Shown: positions 24,174-25,667 of the stretch, one piece after another
Numbering within the stretch: the first letter of the stretch is position 1
Layout of the letters: every line of letters starts with the position of its first letter
NCBI RefSeq assembly: GCF_016862395.1
Contig: NZ_BOMW01000014.1
Location: forward strand, 124,001-188,000
DNA length: 64,000 nt
From: Actinoplanes siamensis
GTDB taxonomy: Bacteria; Actinomycetota; Actinomycetes; Mycobacteriales; Micromonosporaceae
Direction of reading: 5' to 3'
Notes under the pieces: generated by a model
What the model was told of the DNA's origin: nothing
Seen by the model: only the letters and a program-made list of their open reading frames with translations
The model's database searches: none
Made by a program: the position numbers and the translations under genes

Positions 24174-24866
24174 TCACCGCAGATCCACGAGCGGCCGGTC
24201 GGCCGCGCCCGCCCGGGCGATCAGCCGGGGCACGTCCGGGTCCGGCGCGTCGTGCAGGTCCAGGCCGTTGCGGGCCAGCTCGAACGAGGTACGGAAGCTG
24301 CGCCCGTCGGCGAGGCCACGGTAGAAGCCGGTAGCGAACAGGATCGCGGTGTCGTCGAACACCTGCCGCCGCATGCCCACCACGCACGGGACGTGCGCCG
24401 CGATCGCCTCCGCCTGCTCGTCGGTGTGGCAGGCGTTGAGCACGACGCAGCGCAGGCCCTCGCCGAGAATGGCGAACAGGTCGCGCAGGGCGCGCGGCGG
24501 CACCGAGCGCGGCCAGCCGTCCCGGCCGACGACCTGGATGCCGTCCCGCGGGTGCCCGTGGCCGCTGAAGTGGGCCAGGACCGGGCGGTGGCGCAGCAGC
24601 ACGCGCTGCAGGTCGTCGAGCCGCAGGGCGTCGGCGGTGCGGACGTCCAGCCGGCCGGCCGCGCGGGAGTGGGCGACCTCCTGGTCGATCGCCCGGCGTT
24701 CCTGGTCCAGGGCCAGTTGCCGCTGATCGTCGGCGTTCGCGCTGAGCAGCAGGATGGTGCCGCGTGCCGGGACCGGCCGGGCGGCGGGCGGCGGCGCGGA
24801 GCCGTAGTTCACCGTCTTGCCGCCGTAGACCGTGTCGCCCTTGCGCCCGAAAACGATGTCGCCCAT
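24174..24866 (-). CDS. CHAT-domain (caspase-like) protease, putative effector
   Basis: A 230-aa protein. After an N-terminal tail, residues about 30-220 form a CHAT domain of the caspase/separase clan: HFSGHG carries the catalytic His and VLNACHT the catalytic Cys, then GMRRQVFDDTAILFATGFY. The first about 22 residues (GDIVFGRKGDTVYGGKT) are Gly-rich and match the C-terminal tail of the divergent membrane protein. The ATG at 24866 is chosen because it begins the motif; an upstream GTG/ATG at 24908 would overlap the neighbour's start. CHAT proteases act in prokaryotic immunity and cell-death systems. Here the target is unknown and activation by tail-tail assembly is inferred. Confidence 0.85.
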   Translation of the reverse strand: MGDIVFGRKGDTVYGGKTVNYGSAPPPAARPVPARGTILLLSANADDQRQLALDQERRAIDQEVAHSRAAGRLDVRTADALRLDDLQRVLLRHRPVLAHFSGHGHPRDGIQVVGRDGWPRSVPPRALRDLFAILGEGLRCVVLNACHTDEQAEAIAAHVPCVVGMRRQVFDDTAILFATGFYRGLADGRSFRTSFELARNGLDLHDAPDPDVPRLIARAGAADRPLVDLR

Positions 24867-24874
24867 GACGGTCT

Positions 24875-24893
24875 CTGACGGACCGTCCGTCAG
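24875..24893. promoter_or_regulatory. perfect palindromic operator shared by CHAT and DUF6232 genes
   Basis: CTGACGGACCGTCCGTCAG has perfect 9-bp arms around a single central base. It fills over half of the 35-bp gap between two divergent start codons, so one bound regulator could control both genes. The half-site GTCCGTCAG recurs at 25678-25686. Confidence 0.65.
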
Positions 24894-24901
24894 GGGCATC
24901 C

Positions 24902-25438
24902 ATGGCAATCAAGCATGTCGGCGTCGAGGTGCGGATCAGCCGCCGGACGATGTGGGTGGGCGCGAAGGTCTACCCGCTCAAGCACGTCACCCGGGTGGAG
25001 CCGCTGGAGATCGTCCCGCGGCGTGGGCGCATCGTGGTCAGGTACGGCCGGCAGGCGGGCTCCTGGGCCGCGCTCGGGCTGCTCGGGCTGATGGTGCTGG
25101 CGTGCGCCGGCAACACGGTGCCCACCGCCGCCGTCACCGTCTACGAGCTGGCCGTCCTGGGCGCCCTGATCGCCGTCACGATCCGGCTGATCGACCGGCT
25201 CACCATGTCCACTCTGCACGTGCTGAGCATCGCCAGCGCCGGTGGCCTGCACGAGGTCGTGGCCAGCTGGGACCGGGAGCAGATCCACACCCTGATGGAC
25301 CAGGTGGTCGCCGCGATCGACGACCCGGAGGTGAGTTACGCGGTGCACATCGAACACATCGACGCCACCGGCGACGTCGTGTTCGGGGACAAGGGGGACC
25401 GCATCCTCGACGGCGGCAAGACCGAGCACCACTACTGA
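24902..25438 (+). CDS. DUF6232-family membrane protein with effector-matching C-terminal tail
   Basis: A 178-aa protein. The N-terminal cytosolic part (VEVRISRRTMWVGAKVYPLK) is typical of DUF6232. Two adjacent transmembrane helices occupy about residues 54-98, followed by a soluble domain. The last 22 residues (GDVVFGDKGD, then GGKTEHHY) repeat the motif found at the N-terminus of the CHAT protein next door. AGGGG precedes the ATG by six bases. The family has no established biochemical function; I infer a membrane-bound sensor or platform for the CHAT protease. Confidence 0.8.
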   Translation: MAIKHVGVEVRISRRTMWVGAKVYPLKHVTRVEPLEIVPRRGRIVVRYGRQAGSWAALGLLGLMVLACAGNTVPTAAVTVYELAVLGALIAVTIRLIDRLTMSTLHVLSIASAGGLHEVVASWDREQIHTLMDQVVAAIDDPEVSYAVHIEHIDATGDVVFGDKGDRILDGGKTEHHY

Positions 25439-25448
25439 GAGGAGAACC

Positions 25449-25667
25449 ATGGACACCGTCGCCGGAGCCGCCGGCAACCTGCTCACCAGCGTCGTCCTCG
25501 TCCTGCTCGGCCCGACCGTGTTCATGCTGCTGGTCCGGCGATTCGTGCCGTACCTCGGCGAGCACCTCTGGCGCGCCTACTGCGATGTCCTGATCTGGCT
25601 GCTGCGCGCGCCGTTCCGAGTGGTCCGGGTGCTGATCCGGGAGGTCCGCGGCGCCCGCCGACACTGA
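25449..25667 (+). CDS. small membrane protein (72 aa)
   Basis: One strong hydrophobic helix at about residues 10-30 (LLTSVVLVLLGPTVFMLLV), possibly re-entering at VLIWLLRAPF, with an Arg-rich cytosolic C-terminus (RVLIREVRGARRH). It starts 10 bp after the DUF6232 stop behind AGAGGAGA, so it is co-transcribed with it. No family recognised. Confidence 0.7.
   Translation: MDTVAGAAGNLLTSVVLVLLGPTVFMLLVRRFVPYLGEHLWRAYCDVLIWLLRAPFRVVRVLIREVRGARRH

Follow-up and report, generated by a model that had tools for sequence, protein, structure and literature searches.

A CHAT protease and a DUF6232 membrane protein in the window, which is the whole stretch of 64,000 nucleotides of Actinoplanes siamensis DNA analysed here, are encoded by divergent genes 35 bp apart and have matching glycine-rich tails, at the N-terminus of the protease and at the C-terminus of the membrane protein. 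The tails lie outside the folds, are conserved among homologues and co-vary between partners, a His and a Cys residue of the CHAT domain are conserved, and the rule that a tail-bearing DUF6232 protein has a partner with a matching tail holds across families. The two genes probably encode a protease switch that is anchored in the membrane, consists of two or often three parts, and operates by tail-to-tail pairing. The scheme resembles BASS/HET-s signalling, but without an NLR. The features of the locus are listed in Table 1.

Table 1. Features of the CHAT/DUF6232 locus; positions are counted from the first letter of the window
Feature	Position	Strand	Description
CHAT protease	24174..24866	-	230 aa from ATG; N-terminal tail and CHAT domain only
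N-terminal tail of CHAT	24798..24863	-	GDIVFGRKGDTVYGGKTVNYGS
Palindrome	24875..24893	.	perfect 9-1-9, CTGACGGAC-C-GTCCGTCAG; within the 35-bp divergent gap
DUF6232 membrane protein	24902..25438	+	178 aa; PF19744 match
C-terminal tail of DUF6232	25370..25435	+	GDVVFGDKGDRILDGGKTEHHY
Small hydrophobic protein	25449..25667	+	72 aa, basic C-terminus; directly downstream of DUF6232

The CHAT protein belongs to PF12770 (E=7.8e-9, 35.8 bits, cut-off 24), and is also matched by the PADLOC models chat (7.9e-11) and SAVED_CHAT (8.8e-11) and by PDB 8tl0 (E=1.5e-13). Pfam identifies the CHAT domain and no second domain in it. His103 (HFSGHG) and Cys146 (LNAC) are invariant in all 36 homologues picked for the alignment and line up with HFIGHG and VLNAC of 8tl0; presumably they are the catalytic His and Cys. 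The ATG at 24866 is the better choice of start, and the 14 additional residues of the TTG-started frame, which overlap DUF6232, are probably non-coding, because the majority of homologues begin with MGD or close to that.

The DUF6232 protein is a member of PF19744 (E=2.4e-13, 51 bits, cut-off 27.4), the only Pfam family that it matches, and has a weak match to the PADLOC "4TM effector" model (E=0.027). A transmembrane (TM) hairpin is predicted at about residues 41-100, and the structural model suggests a possible PH-like domain split by this hairpin; a Foldseek search with the model, which is of modest quality, returned no match at E<=0.001. Neither the CHAT nor the DUF6232 protein matches an NTPase family at E<=1. 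The gene calls around the locus, read by eye, contain no recognisable defence island, and the neighbours read as a glycosyl hydrolase, a flavohaemoprotein, a glycosyltransferase and similar proteins. Two flanking genes were scanned, one with a globin/NAD-binding match and the other without a match.

The N-terminus of the CHAT protein reads MGDIVFGRKGDTVY-GGKT and the C-terminus of the DUF6232 protein reads GDVVFGDKGDRILDGGKTEHHY. When GDIVFGRKGDTVY-GGKT is aligned with GDVVFGDKGDRILDGGKT, 12 of the 17 aligned residues are identical. Tails of this kind are short, about 20 aa, with GD recurring at regular intervals of 5 or 8 residues, and have a high content of Gly, Asp and Lys. The local score between them is 62, compared with a mean of 18.8 (sd 4.0, maximum 51) for composition shuffles, and none of 20,000 shuffles reaches 62. 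The N-termini of the 52 other gene calls in the window were also compared with their C-termini, and one of these 2704 comparisons reached 62, a 52-aa ORF against itself. The tail windows were cut by eye, for these shuffle scores as well as for the pair matching, partial Mantel, residue identity, BASS-peptide and TIR/HEAT comparisons. In the AlphaFold model of DUF6232, residues 151-178 have a pLDDT below 50. The AlphaFold2 model of CHAT (36 sequences) has a mean pLDDT of 86.4, with means of 53-59 over residues 1-20, and contains no secondary structure before residue 36, where the first strand starts. The low pLDDT and lack of secondary structure place both tails outside the modelled folds. The earlier note had drawn attention to a matching motif on these two termini and had set it outside the folded domains, and both observations hold: the two frames and their tails are present, and the tails have low pLDDT in both models.

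The C-terminal tail is present in all 13 DUF6232 matches kept, the window's own included, with the consensus GDxVFGDKxGDxVxGDK; a fourteenth match, the chimeric record P0014, also ends in the motif and was left out. The motif is within the first 75 aa in 55 of the 62 best CHAT matches (again with the window's own). Five of the seven motif-less matches are cut or variant, and P0072 and P0073 have a different glycine-rich start; in the next 58 CHAT matches the motif occurs in only four. Some tails are multi-repeat (GDKVxGDKVxGDK). By eye, P0142 with P0111 and P0141 with P0083, all separate records, share motifs between DUF6232 tail and CHAT N-tail, such as GSGNIGKA..GSGxIVAG. The tail is not a general feature of DUF6232, since none of the 36 other paralogues read has it; these comprise 6 from two genomes and 30 loci from the best-scoring Pfam matches, mostly of one genus.

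The search for related loci covered 354 genomes, all from Micromonosporaceae, the window's own family. PF19744 occurs in 323 of them, the tail-bearing DUF6232 subfamily in at least 16, and close CHAT homologues in at least 40; the counts are lower bounds because only some candidates per genome were scored. One set of genome contigs, scanned with the DUF6232 alignment, contained a single locus. A neighbouring gene encodes a protein with a matching N-tail for 14 of the 16 tail-bearing DUF6232 proteins. Nine are class A CHAT pairs (G000, G324, G369, G309, G384, G362, G469, G330 and G643), with the two genes separated by 1.4 kb in G384, and one is a class B CHAT pair (G406). Small, probably helical proteins are the partners in G426, G562, G461 and G577. 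G308 keeps the DUF6232 tail next to a truncated or frameshifted CHAT. In G392 one protein combines a caspase domain (PF00656, 1.1e-16) with a tail-bearing DUF6232, the DUF6232 part being matched by a purpose-built model (E=3.4e-22) and falling below the Pfam cut-off; no reading frame in the surrounding 14 kb matches this tail, which scores 30 there, with decoys reaching 37. At L109:5663-7552, where a PF00656 caspase domain is joined to a tail-bearing DUF6232, a 921-aa CHAT protein is encoded nearby.

The tails differ between loci by whole motif classes, which change in both partners together: GDVNQVFG in class B (CHAT), GDINQIYGDVSGGN in class C, and GDEINM..(I/V)QIGKV in class D (small, probably helical partner). 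Across 19 pairs, 14 of them adjacent by sight and five from metagenomes with adjacency inferred from contigs of identical length, the similarity of matched tails is 0.485 and that of mismatched tails 0.272 (permutation p=5e-5, the floor for 20,000 shuffles). The difference is also found within class A, both for 14 pairs (0.504 and 0.342) and for the nine genome pairs (0.501 and 0.363), with p at the same floor of 5e-5. In the 14 CHAT/DUF6232 pairs the own partner beats the swapped one in 91 of 91 locus-pair comparisons, and a partial Mantel test that controls for CHAT identity (0.41-0.78) and DUF6232 identity (0.30-0.72) gives r=0.56 (p=2e-4). In single rows the rank of the own partner runs from 1 to 6, and G369, G362, G469 and G643 are less exclusive. 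G309 and G330 have CHAT domains that are 78% identical and DUF6232 proteins that are 35% identical; their tails differ, and each is nearer to its own partner.

Shared ancestry alone, by a duplicated piece or gene conversion and with no mutual function, would also make the tails alike within loci. Nine of the 12 shared tail residues in the window use the same codon, and much of this sharing is expected from a GC-rich codon bias. Against such an origin, the tails of a pair match more closely than domain identity would predict (a matched mean of 0.50 compared with 0.36 predicted at 100% domain identity, with 14 of 14 pairs above the prediction), and the partner rule extends to partners as different as CHAT, small proteins and EAD1 and to unlike motifs. 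Ancestry without function is very improbable, and gene conversion is not favoured as the sole cause. The earlier note had asked whether DUF6232 tails covary with the N-terminal tails of neighbouring CHAT, caspase or TIR proteins, and had counted tails unconserved or unmatched in homologous loci as refuting its idea. The covariation is borne out, with a matching partner in all 10 cases from other families as well, and the tails in homologous loci are conserved, matched and co-varying.

These other families were reached through 316 genomes of the class, which were searched with an alignment of 20 DUF6232 sequences; 10 of the genomes had a match. The follow-up set, which leaves out the window and L178 (a partial match with no tail), contains 10 tail-bearing DUF6232 proteins from 8 genomes of three other families. 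For all 10, the immediately downstream and mostly overlapping gene has a matching N-terminus. Fixed 30-aa tails were scored against whole ORFs in nine of the neighbourhoods, and L180 was judged by eye. The true tail ranks first of nine in eight of the scored neighbourhoods and third in one, where chance would give one in nine; the third-ranked case, L183, has a score of 43 with two decoys higher, up to 58. The alignment included the tails, so it is biased to tail-bearing DUF6232, but it cannot itself favour a matching neighbour. The tail motifs are quite unlike the window's, for example GDLIQQYGSGSIGKAEHSGSGSI and GDVFAGDKFTGRGYNVNKSGR. Two of the partners, in L184 and L188, contain EAD1 (E=5.4e-12 and 1.3e-15), and the remaining partners are small, probably helical proteins with Pfam matches below the cut-off. 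G755 encodes three DUF6232 proteins with three different tails, each with a matching neighbour.

It is an evenly balanced question whether tail-bearing DUF6232 is a general actinobacterial membrane hub whose partners are interchangeable (CHAT, EAD1 adaptors, small proteins and, by fusion, caspase) and whose tail codes are private and fast-changing. With its own matched code at each locus, parallel switches in one cell, as in G755, could avoid cross-talk. If the hub reading is true, these loci would represent NLR-independent homotypic tail signalling, perhaps amyloid, in bacteria; whether NLR-independent bacterial signalling amyloids exist is a question posed in a review (PMC7889193). The loci form a concrete, testable set, with short tails, a small protease in which no other regulatory part was found, and natural swaps of motif class. 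The parallel pairs within one genome offer a comparison of specificity.

The motif is also found outside these pairs. A DNA pattern for GDx[VIM]xG[DN]K occurs in 75 of 300 family genomes, at 116 places compared with 22 for the reversed control. In 16 of 44 further motif loci a large protein carries the motif in its N-terminal part; the other 28 are without such a pair, and in some reading frames the motif looks like chance. Chance or low-complexity likeness of two glycine-rich ends could draw on these 28 loci, where the 8-residue motif occurs in frames with no tail pair, but it runs against the 20,000 shuffles, the conservation, the covariation and the tail-less paralogues. The shuffles and terminus comparisons reject it for the window's pair, and its probability is negligible.

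In 10 of the 16 loci the same motif ends the upstream reading frame. Three of the four upstream proteins scanned are TIR proteins, and three of the six large downstream proteins scanned have HEAT matches; since these are all below the Pfam cut-off, "HEAT-like" is a loose label. The tails of 11 TIR/HEAT-like pairs are again matched (0.335, mismatched 0.280, p=2.5e-4; 48 of 55 swaps), in a test that omits L159, a near duplicate of L155, and L128, L134, L136 and L169, for which no upstream tail was extracted. The arrangement in L151:3105-6547, L120, L124, L129, L144, L148, L150, L152, L153 and L154 is an upstream gene ending in GDxVxGDK, then a large HEAT-like protein with the motif near its start. 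The TIR/HEAT-like pairs reject the idea that the tail is exclusive to CHAT and DUF6232. The earlier note had counted occurrence of the tail in unrelated, unlinked proteins, as a low-complexity feature, against its idea. This is partly the case, since the motif is present in the TIR/HEAT-like pairs and in chance-looking frames, but the TIR/HEAT-like tails are themselves pair-matched.

Tail conservation, the match within loci, covariation and the joint change of motif class are as homotypic tail pairing predicts. The pattern of homotypic or amyloid-type signalling recognised in the earlier note is therefore retained in its homotypic part, through conservation, within-locus match and joint class switching; its amyloid part, and its suggestion that DUF6232 nucleates CHAT at the membrane, are candidate readings. 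In the switch that we prefer, DUF6232 would be a membrane hub ending in a disordered, locus-specific glycine-rich tail. Because the tails of CHAT and DUF6232 are alike, they may bind homotypically, most simply by stacking short beta-arches as in BASS/HET-s. DUF6232, as the putative trigger, would cluster or expose its tail and gather CHAT at the membrane, where the protease may become active by proximity. The small membrane protein encoded downstream is a candidate substrate or pore, and the outcome may be death or protection of the cell. Activation by clustering would have a precedent in the SAVED-Lon protease CalpL, which is not a CHAT protein and needs oligomerisation (PMC11417357).

The opposite polarity is inhibitory anchoring, in which the DUF6232 tail holds CHAT inactive at the membrane until a trigger releases it. 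The covariation suits any specific tail pairing, the CHAT protein is without another regulatory domain and DUF6232 has the predicted TM hairpin, and divergent genes with a shared palindrome permit balanced expression. Inhibitory docking is usually between unlike surfaces, however, and here both tails are nearly the same sequence, even after class switches; the caspase-DUF6232 fusion and the EAD1 partners also look like recruitment modules. Inhibitory anchoring thus appears distinctly unlikely. The tails may also be a plain dimerisation tag, forming no polymer and pairing by a small beta-augmentation or through a common third partner such as a metal or scaffold. Their shortness (about 20 aa) and regular 5- or 8-residue GD spacing agree with this, but the multi-repeat tails and the pair-specific likeness suit stacking, and docking on a common third partner would give the individual loci no reason to keep matched tails of their own. 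We consider a tag of this kind unlikely.

The proposed activating switch has its closest counterpart in BASS, where the N-terminus of an NLR is linked to the C-terminus of a Bell protein, less often a CHAT or TIR protein (PMC7889193; Dyrka et al. 2020 via PMC7889193, PMC8086366, PMC12261475). As in BASS, the window has neighbouring genes with a short matching motif at opposite termini, and one side is thought to be membrane-acting; it differs in that there is no NLR partner, DUF6232 takes the partner's place, and the N-tail is carried by CHAT. Class A tails are unlike the one BASS3 peptide compared (p 0.25-0.88, 6 comparisons) and show borderline likeness to an archaeal BASS3-like one (p 0.02-0.29, uncorrected, 6 comparisons), so class A was not assigned to BASS3. 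Class A may already be an entry among BASS1-10. Class D tails (IQIG/VQIG) resemble the archaeal BASS3-like peptide (p 0.001-0.03, four comparisons, uncorrected) and are hardly like the BASS3 peptide itself (p 0.03-0.25). The core of the RHIM/PP motif is (I/V)-Q-(I/V/L)-G. On inspection it is absent from the window tails and present in the class D tails of G562, G461 and G577.

In HET-s/NLR and RHIM amyloid signalling, a short homotypic motif joins the trigger protein to the effector (PMC7889193). For class A, any sequence relation to these motifs is putative, as is any formation of fibres. The EADs are a second point of comparison: their copies on neighbouring proteins tend to be most alike and have been proposed to pair homotypically (Kaur et al. 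2020, PMC7159879; 2021, PMC8195603). EAD1, a known adaptor of conflict systems, is contained in two DUF6232 partners, those in L184 and L188. EADs are folded domains, and the connector here is a short disordered tail. Pfam finds no EAD in the window's CHAT/DUF6232 pair. In type III CRISPR systems, the SAVED-CHAT protease, which is activated by assembly, has the same catalytic domain (8tl0, E=1.5e-13), but the window CHAT has no SAVED, TPR or CRISPR part and the tail is its only extra. DUF6232 is named in none of the 5.39 million papers of the literature searched, and titles and abstract starts on CHAT, bacterial amyloid signalling and EAD1 include none on this pairing. Within that literature, the loci would supply the first functional hypothesis for DUF6232.

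The palindrome in the gap between the two genes is a candidate shared operator of both, possibly of a CHAT regulon. The pattern CTGACGGACN{0,4}GTCCGTCAG, with a spacer of 0-4, has a single occurrence in the 8.2 Mb genome. A search of 17 genomes, most picked for their loci and a few for comparison, found 7 distinct sites, spread over 5 of the genomes and every one beside CHAT genes; four lie between CHAT and DUF6232, and three by genes for large proteins with a CHAT match (E 3e-35 to 3e-48). No site of the reversed control occurs in these 17 genomes. The 72-aa protein downstream of DUF6232 probably has two TM helices, as read from its sequence. Six of the 10 class A loci have its gene, and the other four are without it. 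A profile from the six proteins found no further members among the loci examined, and the window's protein has no Pfam, PADLOC or NCBIfam match.

Other CHAT loci have different arrangements. L115:2727-11086 has a CHAT between two large TPR proteins that are weakly matched by STAND/AAA families; the CHAT N-terminus does not significantly resemble one of these (673/5000 shuffles) and resembles the other (0/5000). In L116:6431-7461, L117:6080-7074 and L118:6374-7644 a CHAT and a small TM protein share a VYATQ-type N-tail, with 0/5000, 0/5000 and 15/5000 shuffles respectively. All three loci adjoin genes whose starts, on reading the sequence, look vWA-type.
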